A stretch of 64,000 nt of DNA from a virus. Positions 3,385-60,582 of this stretch are shown here, in pieces (the stretch's first letter is position 1; each line of letters opens with the position of its first letter). The notes beneath the pieces were generated by a model, which saw only the letters and a program-made list of their open reading frames with translations, did no database searches and was not told the origin of the DNA. The position numbers and the translations under genes are program-made. Where the stretch lies: IMG/VR virus record IMGVR_UViG_3300040807_002082, positions 1 to 64,000 of that record, one strand, 5' to 3'.

Positions 3385-3687
3385 TTATTTTTTAGGCTTG
3401 TAATACTTATCGTATATAAAGCCTATTTGTCTACGTTCAGGATGCTTATGTATCCACTGACCGGTTGATGGATCAAACTTGTTCTTAAAAAAGTTATCCA
3501 TCTTCCGGTTTCCAGTCTTAATAGACGGATCTACTTTCAAACACATTGCGTCAAATTCAGAATCAGGAATAAGCGATTCGTTTTCAAATTCATAAGCATA
3601 CGCATAAACGCTTAATTTAATACGTAAACGGATTTGTTCTGATTTTAAATCCTCGGGTGTTTTCTCAACAAAATCTAATAGCGACAT
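3385..3687 (-). CDS. Stand-alone NAD+-ligase Ia-like domain protein
   Basis: 100 residues. The segment LRIKLSVYAYAYEFENESLI followed by PDSEFDAM resembles domain Ia of NAD+-dependent DNA ligases, where Tyr residues and an Asp bind nicotinamide mononucleotide. No adenylation domain follows; the gene ends about 45 residues later. The start overlaps the end of the P450 gene by 13 nt. Either a free-standing NMN-binding or accessory domain, or chance similarity. It converges tail to tail with the plus-strand operon. Confidence 0.55.
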   Translation of the reverse strand: MSLLDFVEKTPEDLKSEQIRLRIKLSVYAYAYEFENESLIPDSEFDAMCLKVDPSIKTGNRKMDNFFKNKFDPSTGQWIHKHPERRQIGFIYDKYYKPKK

Positions 3688-5024
3688 TTAATTCTCATCT
3701 GTATTTGATTTTTAGGGCAGGTGGTTAACCGATGAGCAGGTTCAACATGTTGATGACCGTGTAACTCAAAATCATAATTCATAATCATATTTGCCATAAC
3801 AACAAGTGCTTCAGTTTGAGCAAATGCTGAACCTGCACAAATATGAGGTCCACCGCCAAACGGAATATACGTACCTGGGATTATCTTGTCTTTATTTTCA
3901 GGCAAAAATCTGTCAGGAATAAAAGCATTTGGTTTAACCCAATACTTATTGTGTCTATGTATTGCGTATGGAATTACTAATATTGATCTATCAGCAATTA
4001 ACTTATAGCCTTCAATTTCAATGTCTTGGCTTGGGCAACGAGGAAACACTGTACTTGGCGGATATAGTCTCAATGTTTCCTGAAAGAAGGCTTTTGTAAA
4101 TTCAAGCTTATTCAAATTCTTTTGAGTTAATCCTTCTTTATAAATCTGTTTGATTTCGGTCCGCATACGGCTAATGTGTTGTGGTTGTTGCGTAAGGATA
4201 TAAAATATCCATGTTAGTACACTTGCCGTAGTTTCGTGGCCAGATAAAAAGAATACTGTAAGTTGGTCAATAATCTCTTCTTTGCTAAAGCCGTTACCAT
4301 CTTTATCTTTTGCGTTAATAACAAGATGAGCAATGTTATCCTTACTCGTATTGTTTACGTATTCATATCCGATTTGACTACGGATCCTACGGCAGGCGCG
4401 ATAAAAGATAGGTGGTTGTTTTTGTATCCGACTAGGATTTGTTATAAAGGTAGCAATATCTCTTGATGAAACCAATCTTTTAAACAATGACCAATCATCA
4501 AACATTTGTCTAGAAACATGGTCACTGATTGGTTTACCGAACATCAAACGATACATAACGTCTGACGTTAGATAATACATCATATAATCAAGAGAGAAAG
4601 TCCTTGGCAAATTCTCAATGAACTCATTAACAGTTTCAAGAATTGTGTCAAAGGACTTTTGGGATCTTAAAGAATAATAAGCAGGCGCAAGCATTTGTTT
4701 ATCCTTTGCCCACTTTTCTCCGGTTGTAATGAATAGACTTTTGCCGCCAAGTTCTTCTATAGAACTAACCAATAAATCGCTTTTATAAAATAATCCTTTT
4801 TCATCCTGAAGGATTTCTTTTGCGATTTTAGGATTGTTAACTAAAAGACTTCCTTGTCTTCCGAAAGGAACAACGTCGAGATTAAACGCAGTATCAGGTA
4901 ACAATTCTAAAAAGTTACCGTCGCCTTTGTATGCAGATCTTGCTAAAGACTGTAGTTGATTGAGCGCAATTGGCTTTGGCGGAATATAATCCACATTAGA
5001 ACTCCCGAAGCAAAGCTGACGCAA
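3675..5024 (-). CDS. Cytochrome P450 monooxygenase
   Basis: 449 residues, full length for a soluble bacterial P450. All signature elements are present: the I-helix oxygen-activation motif SGHETT (261-266), the K-helix ExxR (ETLR, 316-319), and the heme-thiolate loop FGGGPHICAG with the axial Cys at about 396. There is no N-terminal membrane anchor. P450s need heme and an electron donor; a ferredoxin gene lies at 35742. The gene overlaps a small membrane-protein gene upstream and lies downstream of the sigma70-like promoter at 5514-5542. Substrate unknown; similarity to fatty-acid hydroxylase-type P450s is only an impression. Confidence 0.95.
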   Translation of the reverse strand: MRQLCFGSSNVDYIPPKPIALNQLQSLARSAYKGDGNFLELLPDTAFNLDVVPFGRQGSLLVNNPKIAKEILQDEKGLFYKSDLLVSSIEELGGKSLFITTGEKWAKDKQMLAPAYYSLRSQKSFDTILETVNEFIENLPRTFSLDYMMYYLTSDVMYRLMFGKPISDHVSRQMFDDWSLFKRLVSSRDIATFITNPSRIQKQPPIFYRACRRIRSQIGYEYVNNTSKDNIAHLVINAKDKDGNGFSKEEIIDQLTVFFLSGHETTASVLTWIFYILTQQPQHISRMRTEIKQIYKEGLTQKNLNKLEFTKAFFQETLRLYPPSTVFPRCPSQDIEIEGYKLIADRSILVIPYAIHRHNKYWVKPNAFIPDRFLPENKDKIIPGTYIPFGGGPHICAGSAFAQTEALVVMANMIMNYDFELHGHQHVEPAHRLTTCPKNQIQMRIKCRY

Positions 5025-5250
5025 GCATAATTGACATAACGCTATTCAATACAATAAGTGATCTGTCTTTCCACATAACCGAAACCCATAACCATAACAA
5101 GGTTCCAAACGTACCAACCGCAAGGTCAAGCATACGCCATTCAGGTCCTGCTTGTCGGAAAGTTACAGATACTAGGATAGCAACAGTTGCCGCCCATTTA
5201 ATGTACCAAGAAAAATTTTCACCATACCACTTGTCATCAGGTTTCATCAT
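4996..5250 (-). CDS. Small membrane protein, probably three helices
   Basis: 84 residues with three hydrophobic segments (about 16-29, 40-58, 65-80). It overlaps the P450 start by 29 nt and the preceding gene by 14 nt, so the three are translationally linked. No family recognised. It could anchor or assist the P450, but only adjacency supports that. Confidence 0.6.
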   Translation of the reverse strand: MMKPDDKWYGENFSWYIKWAATVAILVSVTFRQAGPEWRMLDLAVGTFGTLLWLWVSVMWKDRSLIVLNSVMSIMLASALLREF

Positions 5251-5488
5251 TATCCCTTAAAGTTTTCGCCTGCATATCAACCATATCTTGTACACTTGCG
5301 ATTGCCAATTCTACAATATTTTCACTAATTGGCTGCAAGTTACCTGAATATAAACCAATTACAATATTATCTTCAATTTTATTACGGTTTACTTTGCCAT
5401 TATCTAACGGAAGGTGAAGACGCTGCGACAGAATATCTAACGCTAACGCACCTGCCTGTCTTACTTCATATTTTTCCTGTTTTGTCAT
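5237..5488 (-). CDS. Hypothetical protein, 83 aa
   Basis: First gene of the P450 operon, just downstream of a sigma70-like promoter (5514-5542) with an AAGGATC ribosome site. Soluble, mixed helical composition. No family recognised. Confidence 0.6.
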   Translation of the reverse strand: MTKQEKYEVRQAGALALDILSQRLHLPLDNGKVNRNKIEDNIVIGLYSGNLQPISENIVELAIASVQDMVDMQAKTLRDNDET

Positions 5489-5513
5489 AAGAGATCCTTA
5501 ATTCAATATAGTA

Positions 5514-10507: not shown

Positions 10508-10753
10508 TTAGAAATTTTTGTAACTTTTTGTATTTTTATTTATCGCGGTATGTATGATCTTCCACTTTACCCAGGATTCCATACAATGCTCATCATTTCT
10601 CGATATAAAATTGATAAGCCAACAAAGATGCCATTTGCGATTCCTCATCCGTTCGTGTTGAGTTGCCGAAAAGGTTTGATTGCTTTTGCCGCCTAACAAT
10701 ACGTTAACGAAAATTGAAAAGGCAACTCCTAATCTATGAAAGTAAGATCTCAT
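10508..10753 (-). CDS. Conserved small phage protein with one membrane segment
   Basis: 81 residues, overlapping the gp52 stop as ATGA. It begins MRSYFHRLGVAFSIFVNVLL, a hydrophobic start, then GGKSNQTFSA, and has HCMESWVKW near the end. I recognise the GGxSNQTFSA pattern from many tailed-phage small proteins of unknown role, some annotated as membrane proteins. Coupled to topoisomerase translation. Confidence 0.7.
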   Translation of the reverse strand: MRSYFHRLGVAFSIFVNVLLGGKSNQTFSATQHERMRNRKWHLCWLINFISRNDEHCMESWVKWKIIHTAINKNTKSYKNF

Positions 10754-12087
10754 AACTCATCCAAATCCTTAATGAATTGGTTTTTTGGAGTTTCTTTTTC
10801 CCAGAATTTCAATTCCTTTTGTGCGGCCTTGATTTCTTTTGCAAGCTCCTTAACCATTTCGTCTGTTAAACTCATAATGTTAATCCGAAGCAAACGGTCT
10901 ACGTCTTCAACAAGCGCCGATGTTTTACCAAGGATGTCTTTACCGACTTCATTCTTTTTACGATTCTTAAACGTAATTTCTTCATCAAGAATTCTTTGAA
11001 TGAATTCCATTTTGACATTCAACCATCGAGCTTCTTCGGCCCATTCTTGTTGGCGTTTAGCAATACGCTCTGACAGAATACCTAAACGGTAATCACAGAA
11101 ATCTTTAATGAGATCTCGTTCGTCGGTGTATTCCCGTAGTTTACCATTGAAGTCAATCACCGTTAGGTTTTCAGTCAATGGTTTACTAAGCTTGAACTTC
11201 GAAACGATTTTATCGTGGTTCCAATTTGCAGATGTATTTTGCTTTAGCTTTACTTCGAACCTGAAACCTGATTTATCGCAAAGATCATCATAAGATACTA
11301 TGTCACCATCGTCTTCAAGTTTATCGAGTACCTTTACGTATGCTTCACGATCATATCCATAAGGTACCTCGGTAATTTCAAGTACGGTTTTGCTTTTCTT
11401 ATCAAACATACCTAGAACGGTATACTTGTTTTCTTCTGATTCGTACTGAACCGCACCTTTGAAATCTGGGAAACACACTGGAAGCTTGTTGGCAATATTA
11501 CCATTCAGCATGTATTCACGACAAGCACTAGAAAGTGCATTAGGGTCTCGCGGAAGTATGTTTGTAGCAAAACCAGTGGCAATACCTTTAGTTCCGTTTG
11601 CCAAAACCAAAGGAATCACTGGTAAATAAAATGCTGGCGGTTCGTGTTCAGGATCACTATGCGCAGGGGCGAGGTCAGCATCACGAATATATTTTTTAAA
11701 GTTTTCGTGGAGGCGCGTATAGACATAACGTGGTGCACCTGCTTCTTGAACGAGTCGAGTACCAAAGGAACCACGGCCTTCGACTAAACAGATATTATTA
11801 TTCCACGTTGCGGCCATAAGCTGACCTGCCCCTGCGGCCGACGTCTCACCGTGGTTGTACCCATAGTCTGATATGATACCTGCAACAGCGCTTACCTTTT
11901 TAAAGTCGCTTTTGGAGTTGAGGATCGAGCTATATAAGTAAAACCTTTGCACGGGCTTCAAACCGTCAATCATATTAGGGATTGCACGGGATTCAACCGT
12001 ATACATAGCAAAGGACAACCATTCGTGAGATGCAACCTTAGAGATTGGATACTCATTTGCTTCAGTAGTAAATTCAAGTACGCTCAT
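10750..12087 (-). CDS. gp52: DNA topoisomerase II medium subunit (T4 gp52-like)
   Basis: 445 residues (T4 gp52 is about 442). It begins with the GyrA/ParC-type segment SRAIPNMIDGLKPVQRFYLY, and the catalytic Tyr lies in GAPRYVYTRLHENF. The C-terminal part has long coiled-coil helices (RIAKRQQEWAEEARW). It cuts and rejoins DNA in complex with the large subunit encoded upstream. I start at ATG 12087 (AAAAGG 7 nt upstream) rather than a TTG two codons earlier. It has its own promoter at 12115-12143. Confidence 0.95.
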   Translation of the reverse strand: MSVLEFTTEANEYPISKVASHEWLSFAMYTVESRAIPNMIDGLKPVQRFYLYSSILNSKSDFKKVSAVAGIISDYGYNHGETSAAGAGQLMAATWNNNICLVEGRGSFGTRLVQEAGAPRYVYTRLHENFKKYIRDADLAPAHSDPEHEPPAFYLPVIPLVLANGTKGIATGFATNILPRDPNALSSACREYMLNGNIANKLPVCFPDFKGAVQYESEENKYTVLGMFDKKSKTVLEITEVPYGYDREAYVKVLDKLEDDGDIVSYDDLCDKSGFRFEVKLKQNTSANWNHDKIVSKFKLSKPLTENLTVIDFNGKLREYTDERDLIKDFCDYRLGILSERIAKRQQEWAEEARWLNVKMEFIQRILDEEITFKNRKKNEVGKDILGKTSALVEDVDRLLRINIMSLTDEMVKELAKEIKAAQKELKFWEKETPKNQFIKDLDEL

Positions 12088-12114
12088 TAGCAAACCTTTT
12101 CAAATTATAGTACT

Positions 12115-12143
12115 ATTCTATCAAAGAACTTTCGGAATGTCAA
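12115..12143 (-). promoter_or_regulatory. Sigma70-like promoter for gp52
   Basis: Minus strand TTGACA, 17 nt, TAGAAT, overlapping the end of the zinc-binding microprotein gene. Confidence 0.75.
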
Positions 12144-12343
12144 CCATTATTTTTAAGTTTTTCTTGATGGGCTTCAATCCGTTTCTTTTCCCATTTGTGC
12201 AATGGACATTTTGCTGCAGCAAATTTTACCTTAGCAGGAATAAGACAACCGCACTTACGGCACATCTTTGTCATTGCGAAATACTCATCGCAAGTCAAAC
12301 AAAGATTCATACGTTCCTGTTGTATTGCTTTTGCTATAATCAT
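12140..12343 (-). CDS. Small Cys-rich zinc-binding phage protein
   Basis: 67 residues; coupled to the preceding gene by ATGA. Two CxxC pairs (CLTC and CRKC) plus two more Cys and a His (CPLHKW) suggest a zinc ribbon. A basic C-terminus follows. This type is common in T4-like marine phages without assigned function. Confidence 0.65.
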   Translation of the reverse strand: MIIAKAIQQERMNLCLTCDEYFAMTKMCRKCGCLIPAKVKFAAAKCPLHKWEKKRIEAHQEKLKNNG

Positions 12344-12549
12344 TGAAAGTATTTGTCCAACATATCGAGCACGTCTTGATATTTTGCCATTTCAAGGATT
12401 TCGGTTTCCATTGCTTCAAACACATCTGGGTGTTCGCCAATACCTGCAGGATTATTAAGGTATACCTCAACATTAAGCTTGTGCTTTTGGATATGACCGT
12501 GAGCGTGTGCACGCATTGCTTTAATAATCACTTCTTGATCTAATGCCAT
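12340..12549 (-). CDS. Conserved small phage protein, 69 aa
   Basis: MALDQEVIIKAMRAHAHGHI start, mostly helical, His-rich near the N-terminus. Lies between the two topoisomerase genes and is coupled to the zinc-binding protein. I have seen similar small proteins in tailed phages; no function is known to me. Confidence 0.65.
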   Translation of the reverse strand: MALDQEVIIKAMRAHAHGHIQKHKLNVEVYLNNPAGIGEHPDVFEAMETEILEMAKYQDVLDMLDKYFQ

Positions 12550-12561
12550 TTTCTTTTCCTT

Positions 12562-14382
12562 CTATTGAAACATAAAGTCTTTACGTAGTTGAGAGTCGCG
12601 CCCAAACATCATTTGGAAAATACTTGCGTCATCAACAGTAACGGTATCGTATTGTGGTTTGTTGATAATCGTATCATACTCGTCTTCAGTAAGTGAACCC
12701 AAGCCTTTGATGTAACGGTGCTTCCATCCACCTTGTTCTGATTTAAATTGCGATGCGTCTTCATAATTATAGAACCACTTGACTTCTTTACCTTTAACGG
12801 AAATCATAATCGGTGTACGAGTAATCTTTACACGTTTTTCGGTAAGTAGCCGTGGCCAGAATTTGTAAAAGAACGCAATCAGTAGCGGAGAAATATGACC
12901 AATGCCATCATGGTCGGCGTCGGTTAACGTTGCAATGTTTTCGTACGTCATATTATCAACGCTATTGGGATTATTTATATCCAAGCCAAGTACAGCGACA
13001 AGTTCAGACAATTCCTTGTTCTTCAATACGTCGGCAGGTTTCATATCCCAGGTATTCATAATCACACCACGCAAAGGATATGCTCCTACCTTGTTGGCAT
13101 CTCGAACCTTTAATAGGAAACCCATTGCCGAATCACCTTCGACGATTTTCAGTGTTGCGTCAGATTGATTGGCGGCAATGTGTTTTGCTACCTTGACCTT
13201 ACGCAAACTCTTTTGTGCCAAGGTTGCGGCACGTTTATCAGCGGCGATTTTCTTTGCAAGCTGAGCTTCAATAATTGGGTCAATAATTGACGGTGTATTG
13301 AGAATCTTACGAGCAAAGAACAGCGCATCCTTAATACCAGACGCAACAGCATGGTCACGTACGTTTGTCATAGGATTGGTCAAACGCTCTTTTGTTTGAG
13401 AGTCAAACTTTGGATTCATGAAGTTTCGAGCAAACATGACGAAAGTTAAACCATTCTTGATGGTTGATTTGACAACTTCGATTTTATGCTTACGTTTAAT
13501 CATAGTGACAAGTTCGTCAACGATGCCGTTCACAATAAAATCGACGTATGTACCACCTTGCCGCGTATTCACGCCATTAATAAAGGAGTTGGTACGGAAC
13601 CCATCCTCAGACGATCCAATAAAGAATGATAGGTCTTCGGTCTTTTCAATAATTGCGTCTTCAGCAAACAGCTCAGAATATTTCTTGAGGTTGTTGACCT
13701 TAATGCGTTTACGGTTAAACGAAAAAGCAATTTCAGGAAATGCCATTTGAAGACTGATAAGGCGATCTTCAATCAAAGAAACAGTATCAAGTTCTGAAAG
13801 ACTATCAACTTCAAACAAATCAAAGTCAGGAGTAAACCAAACCTCAGTGCCGTTACCTTCTTTAGGAGTATTCTTTTCTCGAATATCCTCAGCGCCATTT
13901 TTACATTCAACCGTAAGCATTGTTCCATTTGACCAAGTCTTACCTACAAATTTTGCCGACAAGAAATTAGTTGCCGCAGAACCGACACCGTTGGTACCAA
14001 TTGTTACGCGGTTATCATCAAAGCTTGTGCCTGCGTTTACTCTTGTCCATGCAGCAGTTGCTCGTGCAATCTTGCTGTCGGTTGTTTCATCATAAACTAA
14101 TTCTTGCGGAATGCCACGACCGTTGTCGGATATGGTTACCTTATTATTATCTACGGAAACATTAATCTTGTTTGCGTATTTGAAATTAGTGCGGATTGCC
14201 TCGTCAATTGAGTTATCAAGGATTTCGTCAATCATTTTTGACAAAGCAGGCACATACGTTGCGTTTGTCCAAGTACCTAAGACAAACCGCTCAACCTGCT
14301 CTCGAGCACTTGAACCCATATACATGCCGATACGCTCACGAACGTGTTGGCGTGCTGTTAAAATTTTGAAATCTTCACTCAA
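12562..14382 (-). CDS. gp39: DNA topoisomerase II large subunit (T4 gp39/gp60-like)
   Basis: 606 residues in one frame, whereas T4 splits this subunit into genes 39 and 60. The GHKL ATPase part shows EILDNSIDEAI, DNGRGIP and TNGVGSAATNFL. The TOPRIM part has EGDSAMGFLL (catalytic Glu) and DADHDG (metal Asp pair). It supplies ATP hydrolysis and the TOPRIM metal site to the gp52 subunit for decatenation and relaxation during phage replication. Promoter at 14415-14443. Confidence 0.95.
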   Translation of the reverse strand: MSEDFKILTARQHVRERIGMYMGSSAREQVERFVLGTWTNATYVPALSKMIDEILDNSIDEAIRTNFKYANKINVSVDNNKVTISDNGRGIPQELVYDETTDSKIARATAAWTRVNAGTSFDDNRVTIGTNGVGSAATNFLSAKFVGKTWSNGTMLTVECKNGAEDIREKNTPKEGNGTEVWFTPDFDLFEVDSLSELDTVSLIEDRLISLQMAFPEIAFSFNRKRIKVNNLKKYSELFAEDAIIEKTEDLSFFIGSSEDGFRTNSFINGVNTRQGGTYVDFIVNGIVDELVTMIKRKHKIEVVKSTIKNGLTFVMFARNFMNPKFDSQTKERLTNPMTNVRDHAVASGIKDALFFARKILNTPSIIDPIIEAQLAKKIAADKRAATLAQKSLRKVKVAKHIAANQSDATLKIVEGDSAMGFLLKVRDANKVGAYPLRGVIMNTWDMKPADVLKNKELSELVAVLGLDINNPNSVDNMTYENIATLTDADHDGIGHISPLLIAFFYKFWPRLLTEKRVKITRTPIMISVKGKEVKWFYNYEDASQFKSEQGGWKHRYIKGLGSLTEDEYDTIINKPQYDTVTVDDASIFQMMFGRDSQLRKDFMFQ

Positions 14383-28445: not shown

Positions 28446-28470
28446 AAACTGATTACGTATGGAGGATGAC

Positions 28471-29022
28471 ATGTCTTTGAAATTAAAAGAACTTACGTGG
28501 GCTCATCACCAAGCAGCAGAAAGAAGAGCGTTTGCTAAACAGCTTTTAAGTGGTAAAATTGAACCAAAGCTGTATCATAAGTTCTTGTGTTGCCAATATT
28601 TGAATTATCAAATTCTTGAGTCATACACAGAAGTACCATCGCATTTATTACCGATAAGAAGAGAATCACGTATCTGGACAGACATCCGTGAGCTTGAGGT
28701 AGAATACGATTTAACACCCGATGGAAATTACCCTCAATCCGTCGAGGATTATAACAAACATATTAAGAGTCTTGCTGAAAAAGGAGATCAACACGGTCTT
28801 CTTGCGCATATGTATGTACGTCATTTTGGCGATTTACATGGCGGTCAGATGATTAAAAAACGAGTTCCTGGTTCTGGTAAAATGTATGAGTTTGAACTCG
28901 AAAAAGAATATCTCATTGAGGAATTTCGTAAATATCTTGATGACGATATGGCTGAGGAAGCGAAAATATGTTTTGATTTTGCATCTCAGCTTTTTGATGA
29001 ATTGTCTAAAGAAATAGATTGA
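28471..29022 (+). CDS. Heme oxygenase (biliverdin-forming, HO-1 family)
   Basis: 183 residues. The heme-ligand region TWAHHQAAE fits TxxxHxxAE with proximal His13. The distal-helix motif GDLHGGQ is at residues 120-126, preceded by YVRHF. HO uses reduced ferredoxin and O2 to open heme to biliverdin, CO and Fe2+. Start chosen at 28471 (GGAGG upstream) rather than an in-frame ATG that overlaps the ribosome site. The bilin reductase gene follows within 400 nt. Shorter than the plant and cyanobacterial enzymes (about 230-240) but complete in motifs. Confidence 0.93.
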   Translation: MSLKLKELTWAHHQAAERRAFAKQLLSGKIEPKLYHKFLCCQYLNYQILESYTEVPSHLLPIRRESRIWTDIRELEVEYDLTPDGNYPQSVEDYNKHIKSLAEKGDQHGLLAHMYVRHFGDLHGGQMIKKRVPGSGKMYEFELEKEYLIEEFRKYLDDDMAEEAKICFDFASQLFDELSKEID

Positions 29023-29249: not shown

Positions 29250-29452
29250 TGACAAGTTATTTGACAGAAGTAAAGGAGGATCCCCTTAACGGGGACCTCT
29301 ACATCGAGTTCCCACCAGAATTTTTAGAAGAATTAGGATGGGGAGAAAACGACGAACTGATTTGGGAACAAACCGATCTTGGTTGGTCAATAAGGAAAAA
29401 TGAAGATGCATCCATTATGGATCAGGCTCGAAAAACTGGCGACCAATCTTAG
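29249..29452 (+). CDS. AbrB/SpoVT-like small DNA-binding protein
   Basis: 67 residues from ATG 29249. NGDLYIEFPPEFLEELGWGE followed by DELIWEQTDLGWSI resembles the swapped-hairpin AbrB/MazE fold (x-I-P-x-E-x-x-x-x-L-G-W-x-x-G/N-D). It may regulate transcription or act as an antitoxin-like protein; no toxin is adjacent. Overlaps the bilin reductase start by 53 nt. Confidence 0.55.
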   Translation: MTSYLTEVKEDPLNGDLYIEFPPEFLEELGWGENDELIWEQTDLGWSIRKNEDASIMDQARKTGDQS

Positions 29453-30089
29453 CAAAAAATTTGACGAGCATTTTACAAAATGGGATAATCCAAAATACGA
29501 TGATAGTCTAAAGTTTCCTGGATGGAAAGACGATTTTTGGTTATCTCCTTTAATTCGTAAAGCGCATTTAAAAACAATCGTACCTGAGGACGGTAAAGGA
29601 TTGTGGCTAATGCATGTGAATGTATTTCCACGCGAAGGTATTGAATTGCCAATCCTTGGGTTTGATATTGTAGCAGGTCCTAAAAAGATTACAGGATCTT
29701 TTATGGATTTTAGCCCATTACACGGTCATCCACATCCGTACCATGATTATATGGAAATGGTAGTTAAAAATCTTGAATGGGTTAAAGCAAGAGAATTACC
29801 ACCTTGGGCAAAAGAAATCTTTTCAGAGGATATGATTGCAGTTGGTAACATTAATACAGACGAAGAATTAAATCAATTCATTGACGTCACGACAGATCTT
29901 ACAGATTATTATTTAGATAACATTGTAAAAAATGCGTTCAGGTCAAATCGCGATACAAAACCAATTCTAAACAAATATTGCTTTAATCAAAAAATGAATC
30001 CACATTTACATCGTTCAATTGAAGCAATGGGCATCTCAAAACAAGATAAGAATCGTTACGTTGATACTATTTTATTTGAGGAGATATAA
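29400..30089 (+). CDS. Ferredoxin-dependent bilin reductase (HY2 family, PcyX/PebS/PcyA-like)
   Basis: 229 residues. The order of family landmarks is intact: HPLWIRLEKLA start, VFPREGIELPILGFDIVAG (about 75-93), FMDFSPL with the conserved catalytic-type Asp103, ELPPWAKEIFS (132-142), and YCFNQKMNP (193-201). The usual Asn-Asp of the last motif is Asn-Pro here. These enzymes reduce biliverdin with electrons from ferredoxin to phycobilins such as phycoerythrobilin. Lacks the extra length of plant HY2. Which bilin is made cannot be read from sequence; PcyX-type is my best guess because the context is non-cyanobacterial. Confidence 0.88.
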   Translation: MKMHPLWIRLEKLATNLSKKFDEHFTKWDNPKYDDSLKFPGWKDDFWLSPLIRKAHLKTIVPEDGKGLWLMHVNVFPREGIELPILGFDIVAGPKKITGSFMDFSPLHGHPHPYHDYMEMVVKNLEWVKARELPPWAKEIFSEDMIAVGNINTDEELNQFIDVTTDLTDYYLDNIVKNAFRSNRDTKPILNKYCFNQKMNPHLHRSIEAMGISKQDKNRYVDTILFEEI

Positions 30090-34327: not shown

Positions 34328-35745
34328 TGATTGAGAAAACAGTTTTAACTAACCTTATATTTAATGAAGATTATTATCGTCGAGTGTATCCATACATTAA
34401 GTCTGAATACTTTGATGATATTAGTCATAAGAAAATCTTTGATACTTATTCACATTATGTTGAAGAATTTAAGGAGCCTCCGTCAATTGAGGCTCTGAAA
34501 ATTTCTATTGATAAACGCAAAGATTTGAATGAAGATGCCTATAAGAATGTAATGGATCAAGTTTCCGAAATGAAACGAGATCCTGATACTAATCTTGATT
34601 GGCTGGTTAGTGAAACTGAAAAGTTCTGTCAAGACAAGGATTTGTTTAATGCTATTCGCAAAGCAATCCTTGTTATTGATGGAGAAGATAAAGAACTGGA
34701 TAAAGGTTCATTACCTGAGCTTTTATCTAATTCGCTCTCAATTAGTTTTGATACTTCTATTGGTCATGATTATCTTGAAGATTATGAAGGCCGATATGAT
34801 TTCTATCACAAGAAAGAAGAACGCCTTCCGTTTGATATTGACCTTCTAAACAAGGTCACTAAAGGCGGCTTACCACGCAAGTCAATGTCTGTGCTCCTTG
34901 CAACAACCGGCGGTGGTAAGTCGCTCGTCAAATGTCATATGGCTGCAAGCTATTTGATGCACGGTAAGAATGTTCTTTACATTACAATGGAAATGGCCGA
35001 AGAACGTATTGCTGAACGTATTGACGCCAATATGATGGATGTTACCATTGACGAATTAAAAGAACTCCCCAGAGATGTTTACGAAAAAAGAATTGGTCGT
35101 ATTCAATCAAAAACAACGGGCAAGCTTGTCGTTAAGGAATATCCAACAGGTTCGGCACACGTCGGCCATTTCCGCCATTTATTAAATGAACTACGTATGA
35201 AACGTGGTTTTACCCCTGATGTTGTCTTTATTGACTATCTAAATATTTGTGCAAGCGCTCGAGTAAAAGGTGCCGCTGCAGCTAATTCATATACACTTGT
35301 AAAATCAATTGCGGAGGAAGTTCGTGGCCTTGCTATGGAGTATAATTGCGCTGTCGTTACTAGTTCTCAGTTTAACCGCGACGGCTACGGGAACTCAGAC
35401 GTTGACCTTACTAACACTTCTGAGTCTATGGGGATCACTCATACTGCTGACTGTATCCTCGGCTTAATTACATCAGAAGATCTTGATAATCTTGGTCAAC
35501 TTATGATTAAGCAACTTAAAAATCGTTGGGGCGACTTGAGTTATTACCGTCGGTTTGTTGTCGGTATTGACCGAGCAAAAATGAAAATCTATGACCTTGA
35601 AGATTCAGCTCAGAACGGAGTTTCTCAAGACGGACCGCAGGCAGGCAAATTGCCAAAGCCTGATAACGATGCTCCGATATTTGACAAAGGTTCATTTGGT
35701 ACAAAAAGTAAGAAAGGACTGTTTTCTGCAGGAGATTTAATGTGA
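34327..35745 (+). CDS. gp41: Replicative DNA helicase gp41 (DnaB family)
   Basis: 472 residues (T4 475). Walker [11 protein letters not shown], catalytic Glu in [11 protein letters not shown], Walker [12 protein letters not shown], and a DnaB-type H4 region ([10 protein letters not shown]). Hexameric helicase that unwinds the fork and activates primase gp61. Coupled to uvsX upstream and ferredoxin downstream. Confidence 0.96.
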
Positions 35746-36086
35746 CGTATTTAGTTACGGACAACTGTATAAAATGTAAACATACCGATTGTGTTGCAGT
35801 TTGTCCGGTTGATTGTTTTTATGAAGGTGACGATATGCTTGTAATTGATCCAGACGAATGTATTGATTGCGGTGTGTGCGTTCCTGAATGTCCTGTTGAT
35901 GCTATCATTGCAGATGTAGATTTGCCCGAACCTGATAGATCTAAATGGATTGAAATTAATACTGTGTATAGCGACAAGTGGCGCTATAACAATATTACCG
36001 AGCAAAAAGATCCGTTACCCGATGCTGAAGATTGGGACGGAGTACCAAATAAGTATGAAGCGTTCATGGATAAGGAGATAAAATGA
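35742..36086 (+). CDS. 7Fe/8Fe ferredoxin (FdxA-like)
   Basis: 114 residues, GTG start overlapping the gp41 stop, AGGAG upstream. Two cluster motifs: [17 protein letters not shown] and [15 protein letters not shown]. The first has the long spacing typical of a [3Fe-4S]/[4Fe-4S] FdxA. A C-terminal extension follows, as in Azotobacter FdI relatives. It could donate electrons to the phage's bilin reductase, heme oxygenase or P450; that link is inference. Confidence 0.93.
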
Positions 36087-41163: not shown

Positions 41164-41775
41164 ATGCATATACACAACTTATTCCCAACTCCAATTGGAG
41201 AATTTTCTTACGGGGAAGATATGGCCCCGTTTTCAGAAATTGTAAAATCTGAAGGTTATCAAAAACATATTAAAAACGGTAGCGGTAATAGATATTCTGA
41301 CCACAACGTATTATCGTATGATTCATTTGGCCCATTAAGGGAATGGATTGATAAATGCCTTCAAGAATATTATCAACACACCTTTGTCCCTCTCGAACAG
41401 CAACACCCACAAGAACTGTACATTACAGAGTCTTGGGTTAATTATGCAAATAACTCTGAATCGCACGAGTGGCACAATCATACTAACTCTATAATATCAG
41501 GTGTGTTTTATATTGAAGCAACTGATGATGCAATTGAGTTCAAATCACCAAAGCCTTATAATCAAATCATGCCCGAGCCAGATTACTTTAACGAGTATAA
41601 CTCGTCTCAATGGTGGCTGCCTGCAAGAACAGCAACTTTATATTTGTTCCCATCTTGGCTACATCACGGCGTTCCTGTATTTGAAAACCGAGAAGAAGAT
41701 AGGATCAGTATTGCATTTAATACATTCTTAAAGGGCATCGTCAGTCGAAGATTGTCTTCAAGATTAGAGATATAA
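41164..41775 (+). CDS. Putative 2OG-Fe(II) oxygenase (TIGR02466-like)
   Basis: 203 residues. Begins MHIHNLFPTPIGEF, the family start. Metal ligands likely lie in SHEWHNHTNSIISGVFYI and in the late LYLFPSWLHHGVPV; Arg in EDRISIAFN would bind 2-oxoglutarate. Opens a late operon of sugar-, sulfo- and methyl-transferases, so it may hydroxylate a glycan or nucleotide precursor. Confidence 0.8.
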   Translation: MHIHNLFPTPIGEFSYGEDMAPFSEIVKSEGYQKHIKNGSGNRYSDHNVLSYDSFGPLREWIDKCLQEYYQHTFVPLEQQHPQELYITESWVNYANNSESHEWHNHTNSIISGVFYIEATDDAIEFKSPKPYNQIMPEPDYFNEYNSSQWWLPARTATLYLFPSWLHHGVPVFENREEDRISIAFNTFLKGIVSRRLSSRLEI

Positions 41776-41778
41776 ATA
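41771..41778 (+). promoter_or_regulatory. Late promoter box for the glycan-modification operon
   Basis: TATAAATA overlapping the oxygenase stop; AAAGGAG precedes the next ATG. Confidence 0.65.
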
Positions 41779-41796
41779 GTTTTAAAGGAGTATATA

Positions 41797-42372
41797 ATGG
41801 ATTTATCATGGTTACCTGATGATGGTGGAACTGGGCATATGCCACCTTCCGATGAAGTTATCAGTTTTTGGCAAACAGTCAAACAAAAGACAGGCTTTAA
41901 AAAATTAGTAGAAATTGGATTTAATGCTGGTCATAGCAGTTCTATTCTATTAACCTTGTTTGATGATATCACAATTCAATCGTTTGACATTGGACAGTTT
42001 GACATCACGCACTCGAACGGAAAGCTGGTAAAAGAAAGATTTGGCGACCGCTTTAATCTTACAATCAAACCATCAGAACAAATTACATACGGAGAAGTAA
42101 ATGGATCTGACATTCTGTTTATTGATGGCGGACACGATTATCCTATCGTATCTGGAGACGTAGACTTGTGGGAAAACTCAAACATCCCTTACGTCATCAT
42201 TGACGACCTCCAAATCAACGGAGTTAAAAGAGCGCATCGTGAGCTTGTTTCGCGGAATAAGGTAGAAGCAATTTATAAACATTATTATACCGCGGTGCTT
42301 CCATCTTGGATGAGAGACAATCCAAACAACCGTCCAGTTAATGTACCAATTGAGGTTTTGATGAGAAAATGA
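41797..42372 (+). CDS. Class I methyltransferase-like protein
   Basis: 191 residues. VEIGFNAGHSSSILL is motif I of class I SAM methyltransferases (Methyltransf_24-like), and DILFIDGGHDYPIVSGDVDL supplies the acidic strand-4 motif with a His. Likely modifies a sugar or small molecule. Start overlap with the next gene is ATGA. Confidence 0.75.
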   Translation: MDLSWLPDDGGTGHMPPSDEVISFWQTVKQKTGFKKLVEIGFNAGHSSSILLTLFDDITIQSFDIGQFDITHSNGKLVKERFGDRFNLTIKPSEQITYGEVNGSDILFIDGGHDYPIVSGDVDLWENSNIPYVIIDDLQINGVKRAHRELVSRNKVEAIYKHYYTAVLPSWMRDNPNNRPVNVPIEVLMRK

Positions 42373-43064
42373 AAACGCTAATATATCAGTACTATTATTC
42401 CTTACCACAGAATAAACGTACGCATCATATTATGGATGACAGTAACAATTACCACGAACTATCTGCGCACAGCATTAGGCGTTACGCGTTAGAACATGGA
42501 CACGATTATAAATTCTTAGATCAAGAACATCCCGTGTCACCTTTTTATGGTATTTTCTTACCATTTACCGAAGGTTGGTGTCACGATTATGACGCGATTT
42601 GTTGGATGGACGCTGATATATTAGCAACAACTCACGCAAAAGATGTGTTTTCAAAATACAACGCAGGTAAGATATCGGCATACTTCATGGAAACACAAAA
42701 TCGTTGGAAAGGTAAACCTGACGATAGTCCTTGGGGATGGTTTAAAGATAAAGGCCATATTAATTCTGGCGTTGTTATATTTCCAAAATCAACGTATCAT
42801 TATATAACTAACTTTGTATCAGACTTACAGCATTTGCATGATACGAGAACAGAACTTGAAACATCGCTTGGGAATTTTGACCAGGCAATTGTAAATAAGA
42901 TCGTTCGTAACTTAGATTCATATCAAGAATTAAAGCGTGAATGGAATTATCATTTAGGACGGTATCCACAAGAGGATAGATTTGACGCAAACCTTATTCA
43001 CTATTGGCGTCAATTCAAAGGACAGATGAGAAAAGACTTTGAGGATGAAAGAATTTTAAAATGA
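42369..43064 (+). CDS. GT-A glycosyltransferase-like protein
   Basis: 231 residues. AICWMDADILATTHAKDVF carries a DxD metal/nucleotide-sugar motif, and GHINSGVVIFPKS matches the acceptor-side segment of GT34/GT8-type enzymes. Would add a hexose to a glycan. In an operon with methyl- and sulfotransferases. Confidence 0.75.
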   Translation: MKTLIYQYYYSLPQNKRTHHIMDDSNNYHELSAHSIRRYALEHGHDYKFLDQEHPVSPFYGIFLPFTEGWCHDYDAICWMDADILATTHAKDVFSKYNAGKISAYFMETQNRWKGKPDDSPWGWFKDKGHINSGVVIFPKSTYHYITNFVSDLQHLHDTRTELETSLGNFDQAIVNKIVRNLDSYQELKREWNYHLGRYPQEDRFDANLIHYWRQFKGQMRKDFEDERILK

Positions 43065-43678
43065 AAAAAGTGATATGTATGGGATCAGGCAAGAATATGG
43101 TCCTTATAAACGATTGGGATACAGATGGGATTAAAATTTGCGGGGTTAACAACACTTGGCGTGGCACTGATAAATGGGATGTGCTATTACATGCTGGCGA
43201 CTATCCCCATAAACGAGAAGTTCAAGCCGCTAGAAAAAGACAAGAACAGTTAATTGTTTCTCGAGAAGGTGTAATGGGATTTAAGCAATCCTATATGGGA
43301 ATGTCAAATATGCCTTGGGAACAGGCAAGAATCTTTTTAGGTTTGCCTATTTACTTTACTATGACGTATTGGGCTCTATGGCATTTAAAACCTGACGCAA
43401 TTGGTTTCATTGGTTTTGACATGAATTATACCGCAGGTCCTAATGGTGAAACCGCATTTTATGGCGAAGGCTATGATATGAAAACGCGTGGAGTACCTGA
43501 TCCTTTATATCAATTCCGAACCGTTCCTGAATATAAAAAGGAAGGTGAGAATATGATTAACATTCTTTTTGATAGATTAAAAGAACGCACCACCGCTCGC
43601 TTAGTCAATCTTTCAGACGATCCTACCAGTATTCTACCTTGGGATCAAGTAACCTTTGAGGAATTTAAATCATGGTAA
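43061..43678 (+). CDS. Possible glycosyltransferase (GT42/DUF115-like)
   Basis: 205 residues. MGSGKNMVLINDWDTDGIKI start, VNNTWRGTDKWDVLLHAGDY, and DAIGFIGFDMNYTAG resemble sialyltransferase GT42 or DUF115 proteins, where a short GSG loop binds CMP-sugar. If so, the KdsB-like CMP-sugar synthetase at 91-789 could make the donor. Family uncertain. Confidence 0.5.
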   Translation: MKKVICMGSGKNMVLINDWDTDGIKICGVNNTWRGTDKWDVLLHAGDYPHKREVQAARKRQEQLIVSREGVMGFKQSYMGMSNMPWEQARIFLGLPIYFTMTYWALWHLKPDAIGFIGFDMNYTAGPNGETAFYGEGYDMKTRGVPDPLYQFRTVPEYKKEGENMINILFDRLKERTTARLVNLSDDPTSILPWDQVTFEEFKSW

Positions 43679-44343
43679 TTTGTGAAAAGCATAACTTCTT
43701 ATATTTGCGTATTCCTAAAAACGCAAGCTCAAGTTTAGCAGCATTCTTTATTAAAAACTTTTGTGCAATGTCTGATCGTTGGACGGAAGTAAATGATGCC
43801 GCAATCCGAGATCATAAAGTTGACGTTAATGTAATTAACAAATATAGACACCAATACCGTTGGATTCATTTAACGTTGCAAGAACTTGTTGATAATAAGA
43901 TCGTTACCACATATGATGCTCATAATAAAGATGTAATATCTGTTTTGCGCAATCCTTATATGCGTCAGCTATCTTTATACTTTTTTCTAAAACGCGGTAT
44001 GAGCAAATCAGCTGATGAGTTTCGGCATATCTTTAGAGAAGGCAAACATGAGTCTGATGTGTCAAACGCAATCCTTCAAACAGAATATTCTTTATTAAAT
44101 GGTGTTGACTGTGGTACTTGGTGGTTGTATAATAAATTAGATACACACGTTAAAAACTTTTGTAACGTAAAAGGCGTTAATAGTTCTTTAGAATTGCCAA
44201 AGTATAAAGGCACATGGACTCCTAAAGACCAAGACTTGTTTGATGAATATTACGATCAGAAAACAATTGATGCTGTTCAGAAGTATTATGAAAAGGATTT
44301 TGAGAAATTATTTGAATTAGAAACAGGACTACAGGTGGCATGA
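43672..44343 (+). CDS. Sulfotransferase family protein
   Basis: 223 residues. RIPKNASSSLAAFF is the 5'-phosphosulfate loop and SVLRNPYMRQLSLYFF the 3'-phosphate region of PAPS-dependent sulfotransferases (Sulfotransfer_2 type). Would transfer sulfate to a sugar hydroxyl. Overlaps both neighbours. Confidence 0.8.
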   Translation: MVICEKHNFLYLRIPKNASSSLAAFFIKNFCAMSDRWTEVNDAAIRDHKVDVNVINKYRHQYRWIHLTLQELVDNKIVTTYDAHNKDVISVLRNPYMRQLSLYFFLKRGMSKSADEFRHIFREGKHESDVSNAILQTEYSLLNGVDCGTWWLYNKLDTHVKNFCNVKGVNSSLELPKYKGTWTPKDQDLFDEYYDQKTIDAVQKYYEKDFEKLFELETGLQVA

Positions 44344-45014
44344 AAGTTTACATCTTATATCATAACGACCCTTTATCAAAACAATATGCGGACTTTGCGG
44401 CAAAATCGTGCCAGCAAACAAATATGAATTATGAATTGGTTGAAGGTTTTTCTGAACCAATGAATCCTAATGATGCTTGGAACAGTATTGGATTAAAGCG
44501 AAAAATTGAAAGAAACAACTTTGTTCCTAAAGCACAATTATGTTCAGCAGGTCACGCAAAAATTTGGAAAATGATTTCAGAAAGTGATGAGGAAGGCATT
44601 GTATTTGAACACGATGCCGTTATGTTACACGATATTAATGAGATTGAATTTCCAGATAATATGATTGTGGTCCTAGGCTATAAAGTAAAAGATGCCAACA
44701 AATATTTACATGACCAGGCAGGTCCTCCTCAATATATTCGAGATTTGAAAGGACACGAAGGTGCACACGCATATGGGATGACGCCAGCAACTGCAAGAAA
44801 ACTACTCGATGAGATTGAAGAAATTGGAGTATGGTCTGCAGTTGATAACCAATTCTTTTTAGCAGATCAACGTAAAAGCAAGGTTCCTTTAGGCATTCTT
44901 GATCCAACACCAGCAATCGGTTGGTTGCGCCAATCAACAATTTGGGGTAACTCATCAGAAAAGAATTACGAATTTATAGATTCATTTAAAAATAACTATT
45001 ATGGAGACCAATAA
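44340..45014 (+). CDS. Glycosyltransferase family 25-like protein
   Basis: 224 residues. MKVYILYHNDPLSKQYADF start, CSAGHAKIWKMI, VFEHDAVML (the E-x-D motif), and late AYGMTPATARKLLDEI match GT25 enzymes that add galactose to lipooligosaccharide or proteins. Start overlaps the sulfotransferase stop. Confidence 0.8.
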   Translation: MKVYILYHNDPLSKQYADFAAKSCQQTNMNYELVEGFSEPMNPNDAWNSIGLKRKIERNNFVPKAQLCSAGHAKIWKMISESDEEGIVFEHDAVMLHDINEIEFPDNMIVVLGYKVKDANKYLHDQAGPPQYIRDLKGHEGAHAYGMTPATARKLLDEIEEIGVWSAVDNQFFLADQRKSKVPLGILDPTPAIGWLRQSTIWGNSSEKNYEFIDSFKNNYYGDQ

Positions 45015-45016
45015 CA

Positions 45017-45769
45017 ATGTGGCAGCTAACCGACTCGACTCCACGCGAATTTAGATATTATCAGTTTGGGCTACAAAGAACAGGCACGACAATTATTGAC
45101 CGAATCATTAGGGATAATTGGAACTATTGGAAAGCAAATGATGCAGAACAAAATTTGCCAAAGCCTTTTACTTTGCAGCCTCAACCAGATACCGTTTGGA
45201 AACACGCGATTGATATTCCACCAAACTATGACCAAAACGCGCCGACAATTTTAGTATATAAAAGCCCATATACTTGGGCTGAAAGTATGGCATTCCGTAG
45301 AGGTTTGGGCAATGGCGCCTGGAACCAAAGTTGGGGTCACGAGCATTTGAATCTTTATCCTCAACCAAAGCCAGGTTGGAATAACGTCACAATGCCAGGT
45401 CAAGGTACAGTTAACATTGGTCAGATTATGTACGTTTATAAACACTGGTTTAATACTTGGCTTCCATTTGTTGAAGAACATCCTGACAATACAGTCTTGA
45501 TTAAATATGAAGATTTGCTTGTTGATGAGAAACGCAATGAGATCTTTAAGGATATTACTACCAAATTTGGTTGGGATATTATTGAAAATCCAACAATGCC
45601 AAAACACGTAGGTTCATCTCAGCCTATGGATCAAGAACGTATTGACTACTACCTAAAAGGCAGACCAACGCAAGAAATGTTCTATCAACACGGTAGAAGG
45701 TACTTAAATTCTATTAATGACATCCTTGGGCACGAATTAATTACACGCCTGGGATACGAATTCTTATAA
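45017..45769 (+). CDS. Sulfotransferase-like protein
   Basis: 250 residues. YQFGLQRTGTTIIDRII is the P-loop-like PAPS motif and LVYKSPYTWAESMAFRR the 3'-phosphate site; VLIKYEDLLVDEK is typical of the C-terminal half. A second sulfotransferase in one operon suggests two sulfation positions or acceptors. Confidence 0.8.
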   Translation: MWQLTDSTPREFRYYQFGLQRTGTTIIDRIIRDNWNYWKANDAEQNLPKPFTLQPQPDTVWKHAIDIPPNYDQNAPTILVYKSPYTWAESMAFRRGLGNGAWNQSWGHEHLNLYPQPKPGWNNVTMPGQGTVNIGQIMYVYKHWFNTWLPFVEEHPDNTVLIKYEDLLVDEKRNEIFKDITTKFGWDIIENPTMPKHVGSSQPMDQERIDYYLKGRPTQEMFYQHGRRYLNSINDILGHELITRLGYEFL

Positions 45770-45772
45770 ATA
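45765..45772 (+). promoter_or_regulatory. Late promoter box for the internal-protein operon
   Basis: TATAAATA overlapping the preceding stop, 41 nt before the ATG of the 812-codon gene. Confidence 0.65.
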
Positions 45773-45812
45773 GAATTAAATGTTTCCAAGTTAAAAGCAC
45801 AGGATTTTCTTG

Positions 45813-48248: not shown

Positions 48249-48342
48249 GAAGCCTTTAAAGGAAGCAATTAAAGAAGCTACCGAAAAAGGTAAGTATGCG
48301 CCTCCTAGGCCAAAGAAAGTAACTGGCAGGAAAAAGAAATGA
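48241..48342 (+). CDS. Basic 33-aa microprotein
   Basis: Overlaps the polyprotein stop by 8 nt and the next gene by ATGA. MPKKPLKEAIKEATEKGKYA, then a Pro/Lys/Arg tail. Possible DNA-binding internal protein. Confidence 0.5.
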   Translation: MPKKPLKEAIKEATEKGKYAPPRPKKVTGRKKK

Positions 48343-48662
48343 AACGTTTTAAACAATACCTAGATGAAGATTGTTGGTCAGGATATAAACAGGTCGGCAT
48401 GAAAAAGAAAGGTGACAAGATGGTACCTAACTGTGTACCTGAAGAAGCGGAGATTGAAGAAGGTTCTGAAACTTGGGAGCAAGGTTATAAACGCCGTGTT
48501 GTAAAAACAACTAAACCTGAACATAAAGAAAAAGGTTATAATTGGCGTATTAAAGGTAAAGATCGTCCTGAAATTTCAATTAAACTTTATAAAGAAAAGC
48601 CATCTCAACAAGAGTTTAACAAACAAATGAAAAGAGTAGCGGGGCACGAGTTCGGTGGATAA
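48339..48662 (+). CDS. CTS-bearing small protein with CWSGYKQVG motif
   Basis: 107 residues. N-terminus MKRFKQYLDE-D is a capsid-targeting-like sequence. CWSGYKQVGMKKKGDKMVPN follows; this short Cys/Gly/Lys module is common in marine phage internal or structural proteins. Basic overall. Probably packed in the prohead core. Confidence 0.65.
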   Translation: MKRFKQYLDEDCWSGYKQVGMKKKGDKMVPNCVPEEAEIEEGSETWEQGYKRRVVKTTKPEHKEKGYNWRIKGKDRPEISIKLYKEKPSQQEFNKQMKRVAGHEFGG

Positions 48663-49011
48663 GTTTAGTAAATATACAGAAGATCGTATTGATGCCATTT
48701 GTGAAGAATGCAGCATCTACGATGATTTGATTATTGAGGCGGCCGAATACGAAGGCAAGAAAGTAGAATTGAATAATCCTATTCGTACCTCTGAGGTTCC
48801 TTCAAAGAAATTTAAAGTATACGTCAAAAATGAAAAGGGTAATGTTGTTGTTGTCCGTTTTGGCGATCCGAAAATGGAAATTAAAAGAGATGATCCTGCG
48901 CGTAGAAAAAGCTTTAGAGCAAGACATAATTGTGCAGATCCAGGTCCTAAGTGGAAAGCAAGATACTGGAGTTGCTATCAATGGCGTGCAGGCGCCAATG
49001 TAGATAATTAA
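48655..49011 (+). CDS. Phage protein with RRKSFRARHNC/ARYWSC domain
   Basis: 118 residues from a GTG start. The C-terminal half DDPARRKSFRARHNC and KARYWSCYQW is a domain I recall from many tailed phages, often annotated as prohead core or structural protein, with conserved Cys residues. An acidic N-terminal helix precedes it. Exact role unknown. Confidence 0.65.
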   Translation: MDKFSKYTEDRIDAICEECSIYDDLIIEAAEYEGKKVELNNPIRTSEVPSKKFKVYVKNEKGNVVVVRFGDPKMEIKRDDPARRKSFRARHNCADPGPKWKARYWSCYQWRAGANVDN

Positions 49012-49055
49012 ATAAATATAGTCGGATATTGATTAAACCTTAAAGGAAACAAACA

Positions 49056-49217
49056 ATGAAACGCTTTAAAGCACACCTCGAGGAAAAAGAGCCTGATACT
49101 CTTGCTATGTTAGCCGCCAAAGAAAAAGGCAAAAAAGACGCTGAGAAAAAGGACGACGAGGAAGAAAAAGAATCTCAACCTAAAAAAGATAAAGAGGAAA
49201 AACCAAATGAAGATTAA
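49056..49217 (+). CDS. CTS-bearing charged microprotein
   Basis: 53 residues, AAAGGA ribosome site, an AATAAATA late-like box about 45 nt upstream. MKRFKAHLEE-K start fits the targeting pattern; the rest is a Lys/Glu/Asp tail (KKDAEKKDDEEEKES). Similar in charge to T4 prohead core proteins gp67/gp68. Confidence 0.65.
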   Translation: MKRFKAHLEEKEPDTLAMLAAKEKGKKDAEKKDDEEEKESQPKKDKEEKPNED

Positions 49218-49815: not shown

Positions 49816-49854
49816 TAAATATAACTATAATAAACCCAAACAAGGAGAAAAGCA

Positions 49855-50172: not shown

Positions 50173-50189
50173 TACTTGGTTGATATATA

Positions 50190-50564: not shown

Positions 50565-50566
50565 CG

Positions 50567-59355: not shown

Positions 59356-59385
59356 ATTCGTAATAATAATTAAGTGAGTTATATT

Positions 59386-60582
59386 ATGGATTACTTGCAA
59401 TATTTTGAGGATACGATAAAAGACTTTAAATCCGATGGACGATATAGAGTCTTTAACGATATCATTCGAGAAAAAGGAAATTTTCCTAAAGCAATATGGT
59501 ATGGTAAGTATGCTCCAAAAAATATTGTAAATTGGTGCTCTAATGATTATCTAGGTATGGGTCAAAACCAATATGTTATTGATGCCATGCACACTGCGTT
59601 AGACCAAACAGGCGCAGGTTCTGGCGGTACTCGTAACATCGGCGGGACATCCCAATATCACGTTACCCTTGAGCGGGAACTTGCGCTGCTTCACAACAAA
59701 GAGGCGGCGCTTCTTTTTTCTTCGGCATATGTAGCAAATGAATGGTCGATTATTGCTCTTAGCCGTATTATACCAAATATTTGTTATATTTCGGATACAA
59801 AGAATCATGCTTCTATTATTATGGGTGTTAAGCATAGCCGAGCACCGAAGCATTTGTTTGAACATAACAATATGCAAGACTTGGAAGAAAAACTCGAAAC
59901 CGCAGTTAAGAATAACCAAATCCCTTGTATTCTATTTGAGTCAGTTTATTCCATGGACGGTGATGTATCACCCATCAAAGACATCTGTGATTTAGCAGAT
60001 AAATATGGGGCAATAACTTATATTGATGAAGTTCATGCAGTTGGTTTGTATGGAGACACCGGCGCAGGTTATTGCGAACAGTTAGGTCTCCAAGATAGGA
60101 TAACAATTATAAATGGAACATTGGGAAAAGCCTTTGGGGTTCAAGGTGGGTATATTGCTGGCGATCGCATTGTTACTGACGCTATTCGGTCCGTGGCTTC
60201 TGGGTTCATCTTTACAACAAGTATCTCGCCCGCAATCTGCGCAGGTGCTATTGCCTCCATCAAATATCTCCGTGACCATCCTTCCCTCCGCAGAAGACAT
60301 CAGAAAAAAGCAGAACAATTAAAGTATCTGCTCGGCCACGAAGATATTCATATTCATCAAAACGCGTGCACACATATCGTACCCGTGATGGTTAACGATG
60401 CGTTTAAATGTAAAGCCGCGAGTGACCGTCTATTGAATGATTATGGAATTTATATTCAACCAATTAACAGTCCTACAGTTGATCCTGGTACTGAAAGATT
60501 ACGTATTGCGCCAACCCCTTATCACGACGATATAATGGTTATTGAATTGGTTACTGCATTGAAAGAAGTACTATGTGGGTGA
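59386..60582 (+). CDS. hemA: 5-aminolevulinate synthase (Shemin pathway)
   Basis: 398 residues, near the 400-409 of alphaproteobacterial [47 protein letters not shown]-lysine in GTLGKAFGV (Lys248), and the ALAS-specific C-terminal [12 protein letters not shown] followed by [11 protein letters not shown] are all present. These separate it from AONS and KBL relatives. It condenses glycine and succinyl-CoA to ALA, the first step of heme synthesis. Start at ATG 59386; an upstream GTG is possible. Two small genes and a DUF454 gene follow in operon. Confidence 0.95.

Follow-up and report, generated by a model that had tools for sequence, protein, structure and literature searches.

A cytochrome P450 gene in a T4-like phage with an ancestry that points to bacterial photosynthesis gene clusters

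What would a cytochrome P450 do for a T4-like phage, and from which lineage would such a gene have come? The locus that raises these questions lies in a 64,000-nucleotide stretch of DNA (the window) that belongs to an IMG/VR virus record of 77,680 bases. The first-pass annotation of the window described a full-length P450 and proposed that an ALA synthase, a ferredoxin, and a small membrane protein encoded by the same window serve it.

Judged from its sequence, the ORF is a real and intact cytochrome P450 under selection. It is found on the minus strand at 3675-5024, where it had been called, and scores 231 bits with the Pfam p450 family (PF00067; curated cut-off 22.8); it matches no PHROG family. 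The superfamily signatures that had been described as intact (FxxGxxxCxG in the heme-Cys loop, ExxR, and [AG]Gx[ED]T in the I-helix) are all present by alignment and pattern match. The P450, its motifs, and its immediate neighbors are as follows:

3675..4994, minus strand: cytochrome P450 (439 aa from GTG; PF00067, E 3.2e-68; fold pLDDT 90.8)
4227..4244, minus strand: I-helix motif SGHETT of the P450 (residues 251-256; from the alignment, with coordinates reckoned from the GTG start)
4068..4079, minus strand: ExxR motif ETLR of the P450 (residues 306-309; E306 and R309)
3810..3863, minus strand: heme-binding loop PFGGGPHICAGSAFAQTE of the P450 with Cys386 (pattern match)
4996..5250, minus strand: DUF6552 small protein, directly upstream of the P450 (PF20189, E 4.2e-13)
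5237..5488, minus strand: 83-aa ORF, upstream and on the same strand as the P450 (no Pfam or PHROG match)
3385..3687, minus strand: 100-aa ORF with a DNA-ligase N-terminal-like domain (PF22745, E 4.6e-9), overlapping the end of the P450 by 13 bases

The heme loop reads FGGGPHICAG, with the cysteine at position 386 in the 439-aa numbering; its pattern occurs once in the 64-kb window and in none of 100 shuffles, and the E and R of ExxR are invariant across the 36 rows of the P450 alignment. An alternative TTG start at 5024 would give a protein of 449 aa; the GTG at 4994 is the likely start because it lies one base past the upstream stop, is preceded at 7 nt by GGGAG, and begins a protein whose N-terminus (YIPPKP) aligns with those of its relatives. 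The AlphaFold2 model is confident (mean pLDDT 90.8, pTM 0.92), and the 50 solved structures listed as its fold matches are all P450s (query TM-scores 0.74-0.83). CYP184A1 with bound oleate is first by fold, and the fatty-acid P450 BM3 is also among the matches; when solved structures are compared by profile, the plant carotene hydroxylase CYP97A3 ranks highest (E 7.6e-87). The fold search does not settle the substrate.

The small protein upstream had been described as a three-helix membrane protein that overlaps the P450 and might dock it at the membrane. The overlap needs the TTG start; with the GTG at 4994 the two genes are separated by a one-base gap. In a 19-residue Kyte-Doolittle scan the protein exceeds 1.6 only at the windows starting at residues 63-64, which does not confirm three helices. 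DUF6552 is found at 19 viral loci and also in the Pelagibacter phages HTVC008M and Mosig and in phage C48C1; a P450 was looked for in the HTVC008M and C48C1 records and none was found, and we rejected a docking role for a family so widespread in phages that lack a P450. On the opposite strand, a class 3 lipase-family protein (2129-2833; PF01764; PHROG esterase/lipase) that could act on lipids is also encoded near the P450.

The surrounding DNA is that of a T4-like phage, as had been proposed; the window encodes UvsW N-terminal and gp32 families, a class I ribonucleotide reductase, a DNA polymerase that is closest to those of phage C48C1 (46%) and cyanophages (45%), and the following genes:

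10750..14382, minus strand: T4-type topoisomerase subunits, linked to the P450 in both phage contigs

Farther away, a block at 41797-45014 encodes methyltransferase, sulfotransferase-family, and glycosyltransferase-25 proteins, perhaps for surface or glycan modification.

The second phage contig is a 25,612-base IMG/VR contig that has the matching gene order from the topoisomerases through and beyond the P450, with near-identical flanks (86 mismatches in 14,212 ungapped positions). The differences sit in tracts (28 in the P450, at ~4250-5000, and 44 in the 1000-1250 bin), the genes flanking the P450 within 3,385-5,490 are identical, as is most of the remaining shared sequence; this clustering suggests recombination between phage alleles. 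The two P450s differ at 27 codons by 18 synonymous and 10 nonsynonymous changes, that is, a pN/pS of 0.14, which indicates purifying selection. An assembly chimera, in which a phage contig is joined to bacterial DNA, would be signaled by homologues found only in bacteria together with bacterial flanking genes. The homologue half of this description nearly holds, because apart from the sibling all of the homologues found for the P450 clade are bacterial; the other half does not, because the flanks are those of a phage. We rejected the chimera, which we regard as extremely unlikely, on these flanks, on the second contig with the same order and its own T4-type topoisomerase genes, and on the GC content of the P450 (0.36, as in its phage neighbors, vs 0.53 in the Luminiphilus homologue).

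The rarity claimed for P450s in tailed phages is borne out, since only three of 50,697 phage records match the phage P450 at E 0.01 (23-29% identity). In IMG/VR, a search of viral contigs with a narrow heme-loop pattern, which undercounts because it caught nine of 12 P450 loci, identified 22 stretches, all true P450s: the sibling, a 462-aa P450, a fragment, and 19 members of a separate ~480-aa group. The sibling alone belongs to the lineage of the phage P450, and it was also the only relative identified in alignment-based IMG/VR scans with narrow patterns. The ~480-aa P450s, from 19 viral contigs (including L013, L016, L017, L021, L022, L028, L033, and L034; loci L035-L038 and L040-L054), share 36-100% identity with one another and 23-30% with the phage P450, and appear to be a family of P450s carried by large phages. 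Several of their contigs encode a B12-dependent ribonucleotide reductase nearby (in L022 at 290 bits, below the cut-off of 340), collagen-like and tail-like ORFs are seen nearby by eye, and one copy (L049) has internal stops.

Other tailed-phage P450s are already on record, as the annotation of the viral-structure match A0A6J5NCR8 implies (an uncultured Caudovirales phage; 12% identity). P450s in giant viruses, Ranid herpesvirus 3, and Mycobacterium phage Adler are attributed to Lamb et al. 2019 in the available portions of two later papers (PMC9405906, PMC11814380), and the Adler P450 (CYP102L1; likewise in a tailed phage, 23% identity) is stated in the second of these to derive from the host Mycobacterium abscessus (PMC11814380). 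The viral models in the fold comparison share 12-22% identity with the phage P450. The giant-virus and herpesvirus P450s, also virus-borne, belong to viruses of eukaryotic hosts. The present contig carries a P450 together with a ferredoxin. We dropped 'Pseudomonas phage Y1' as evidence for a phage P450, given that the record is marked unverified and the neighboring ORFs look bacterial by eye; its P450, within the stretch 41616-52122 of OQ572403.1, lies among high-GC ORFs that resemble bacterial regulator and efflux genes and may be bacterial sequence. The part of the literature covered mentions neither a T4-like phage with a P450 nor a virus with a member of the P450 clade described next.

Searched alone against genome contigs, the phage P450 retrieved no relative (its peptide patterns are too specific); bacterial kin were retrieved with a profile built from five P450s. 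In this search of GTDB genome contigs the closest sequences are from Luminiphilus sp. (Halieaceae; 44-45% identity); most others share 35-42% and are from Alphaproteobacteria, Gammaproteobacteria, Betaproteobacteria, Gemmatimonadota, and MAGs labelled Acidobacteriota. Plasmid matches reach at most ~29% identity among the matches listed. In a maximum-likelihood tree of 44 rows, the phage pair groups with one Luminiphilus sequence (L235; support 97/94) and then with other Halieaceae (100/98), and the P450 clade is split from eight outgroup rows (100/99); a second tree has 94 rows, and both were built without the partial rows L269, L278, and L300. The phage P450 therefore falls with a clade from the pigment gene clusters of phototrophs and not with other P450s. 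The phage may be nested within the bacterial rows or sister to them: the grouping with L235 has the support given above, but the phage branch is long, and a tree in which all bacterial rows form one group and the phage stands outside it is not quite rejected (AU test, p 0.055). Relatives of the Halieaceae (OM60/NOR5) are the most likely donor lineage. Across the bacterial clade loci (L235-L270, from Luminiphilus, Roseomonas, Novosphingobium, Phycosocius, and Gemmatimonadaceae), most rows share 35-45% identity with the phage P450, and the clade, which is well supported, has all of its P450 motifs; the phage copy differs in its long branch, its altered clade-specific residues, and the lack of crt or bch neighbors. 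Of the 46 clade-specific residues it retains 24; of the 147 residues conserved across the clade it retains 102, no more than are kept by the near outgroups L266 and L271.

The genome neighborhoods of the bacterial clade identify the setting from which the phage gene appears to derive. In 29 of the 35 clade loci, which were picked by similarity to the phage protein and not by their neighboring genes, crt or bch genes occur within ~4 kb of the P450; this is the case for none of 45 more distant P450 loci (Fisher p 3e-16, a value that overstates independence because the rows are related). The partial L278 and L300 (39% and 34% identity; one Gemmatimonadota MAG), although clade-like, and L266, which is basal to the clade, were counted as distant, so the grouping works against a linkage with pigment genes. 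The neighbors across the 35 loci include the CrtD/CrtI family (the CrtI and CrtD counts overlap because the two families match each other), CrtC (15), CrtB (11), BchI (5), BchD (4), and BchO (4). With NCBIfam, 1-hydroxycarotenoid 3,4-desaturase CrtD scores above its cut-off in two clade loci, and CrtB, CrtC, and a truncated BchI score below theirs. The photosynthetic reaction-centre family (pufL/M) is found in 30 of 35 clade genomes vs six of 41 distant genomes (43 of the 45 distant loci were chosen, leaving out L278 and L300, and 41 were searched); one of the six is that of L266. Nine crt-, bch-, or puf-linked query proteins have no match in the phage window or in L315; the phage gene is thus related to a gene of such clusters without itself belonging to one.

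Two other genes travel with the bacterial P450s: an uncharacterised protein of ~245 aa (30 of 35 clade loci) and an ATP-grasp protein (25 of 35; PF02655 in one), which occur at L235, L237-L239, L241-L246, L248-L255, and other clade loci and are possible new carotenoid or pigment genes. We found no characterised member of the P450 clade.

Four genes of the window bear on the proposal that the phage supplies its P450 with heme and electrons:

28459..29022, plus strand: heme oxygenase (PF01126, E 5.4e-20)
29400..30089, plus strand: ferredoxin-dependent bilin reductase (PF05996, E 4.8e-15)
35742..36086, plus strand: ferredoxin FdxA (NCBIfam FdxA_Protbact, 156.2 bits, cut-off 135)
59374..60582, plus strand: 5-aminolevulinate synthase (TIGR01821, 556.7 bits, cut-off 338.55)

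The ALA synthase and the ferredoxin are as the first-pass annotation had them, both above their family cut-offs; the heme oxygenase and the bilin reductase were absent from it. Relatives of the ALA synthase occur in 71 viral contigs. In 50 related records (48 viral and two named phages, a subset of 91 viral/phage loci picked mainly by record length), we found no P450 and, in a search run without a positive control, no FdxA; seven encode a heme oxygenase. FdxA relatives occur in at least 599 viral stretches; none of the best 80 loci has a P450, ALA synthase, or heme oxygenase nearby (flanks of up to 8 kb), and no P450 was found in the 22 records searched for 22 of these 80 loci. The available text of a 2024 paper describes phage AlaS, HemO, and bilin reductase together, and also cassettes that are broken, with valaS close by, and valaS genes on their own (PMC11480375); P450 has no occurrence in that text. 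All three kinds of gene are present in the window, with AlaS ~29 kb from the other two, that is, they do not form the contiguous three-gene cassette of that paper but the known phage tetrapyrrole set in a broken form.

A P450 module in which heme comes from the phage ALA synthase, electrons come from the phage ferredoxin, and the small membrane protein docks the enzyme is improbable in our judgment, although every gene is on one contig and the absence of both FdxA and P450 from the 50 related records marks the two as accessory genes of this lineage. ALA synthase, FdxA, and DUF6552 are found in phages without a P450, a distance of 30 to 55 kb separates the P450 from the heme and ferredoxin genes, and the heme oxygenase and bilin reductase, which better explain the presence of the ALA synthase and the ferredoxin, offer both other uses; these two enzymes would use reduced ferredoxin, and a ferredoxin dedicated to the P450 is not supported. 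We therefore rejected dedicated heme supply and a dedicated ferredoxin. FdxA may still serve the P450, and is a possible electron donor of the P450, the heme oxygenase, or the bilin reductase. The earlier account is partly supported: the rarity of the phage P450 stands and the heme, ferredoxin, and dock story does not.

The function that we favor, as probable by a narrow measure, is that the phage P450 is a working enzyme, from the lineage of phototroph photosynthesis/carotenoid clusters, that oxidises a spirilloxanthin-type carotenoid. We infer carotenoid-monooxygenase function from the linkage at 29 of 35 loci and the CYP97 profile match. CrtC and CrtD as neighbors in the bacterial clade make spirilloxanthin-type intermediates the likely substrates. 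The plant carotene hydroxylases CYP97A3 (LUT5) and CYP97C1 share the fold (20-22% identity in the fold alignment) and act on the ring ends of carotenoids, whereas CrtC and CrtD are enzymes of acyclic carotenoid pathways. In the infected cell the P450 would bind heme, receive two electrons from a ferredoxin (phage FdxA or the host's), activate O2 at the I-helix, and oxygenate an acyclic spirilloxanthin-type C40 carotenoid by inserting one oxygen atom (hydroxylation or further oxidation), so that the pigment of a light-harvesting complex would be changed. The host would be a photosynthetic bacterium, whose altered pigments may benefit the phage. Several findings count against a carotenoid substrate, that is, the phage record has no pigment gene, the phage branch is long, the phage protein retains little more than half of the clade-specific residues and no more of the clade-conserved ones than the near outgroups do, and oleate-bound CYP184A1 is first by fold.

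The same findings can be read as repurposing, in which an enzyme of the same ancestry would now act on another hydrophobic host molecule (fatty acid, quinone, hopanoid, or terpenoid) or inactivate a defence metabolite. The long phage branch, the 22 of 46 clade-specific residues that have changed, the fatty-acid P450s among the structure matches (CYP184A1 with oleate and BM3), and a contig without pigment genes agree with this; a carotene hydroxylase is nevertheless the best profile match and the phage enzyme retains about half of the clade-specific residues, and we judge repurposing rather unlikely. That the protein is made and acts on no host metabolite, as a vestige or a heme sink, would suit a diverged copy with no known substrate, but the retention of every catalytic motif and the purifying selection between the two copies make it very improbable.

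Returning to the carotenoid-oxidising enzyme, a more specific version is tentative, and we hold it possible but doubtful: during infection of an aerobic anoxygenic phototroph the phage would remodel its light-harvesting carotenoid, and the clade would be one of the missing carotenoid oxidases of purple-type bacteria (for example, those for rhodopinal or gemmatoxanthin). In the available portions of two papers, the enzyme for rhodopinal is stated to be missing from knowledge and CrtA to be no P450 (PMC10604819), and the enzyme that oxidises to lycopen-19-al in gemmatoxanthin is stated as not known (PMC8342508). We make no claim as to which carotenoid step the P450 clade performs; the P450 next to crtD and crtB, apparently uncharacterised, is a candidate for these oxidations, which have no assigned enzymes in the portions cited.

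The new result is the ancestry of the phage P450, which the comparisons of sequence point to as lying in bacterial photosynthesis gene clusters. If true, viral control of photosynthesis would no longer be confined to cyanobacteria, because a phage would carry a gene that originated among those for pigment synthesis in anoxygenic phototrophs; the virus may alter the pigments of an infected photosynthetic bacterium, and such carotenoid remodelling, if true, would be the anoxygenic counterpart of the photosynthesis genes of cyanophages.
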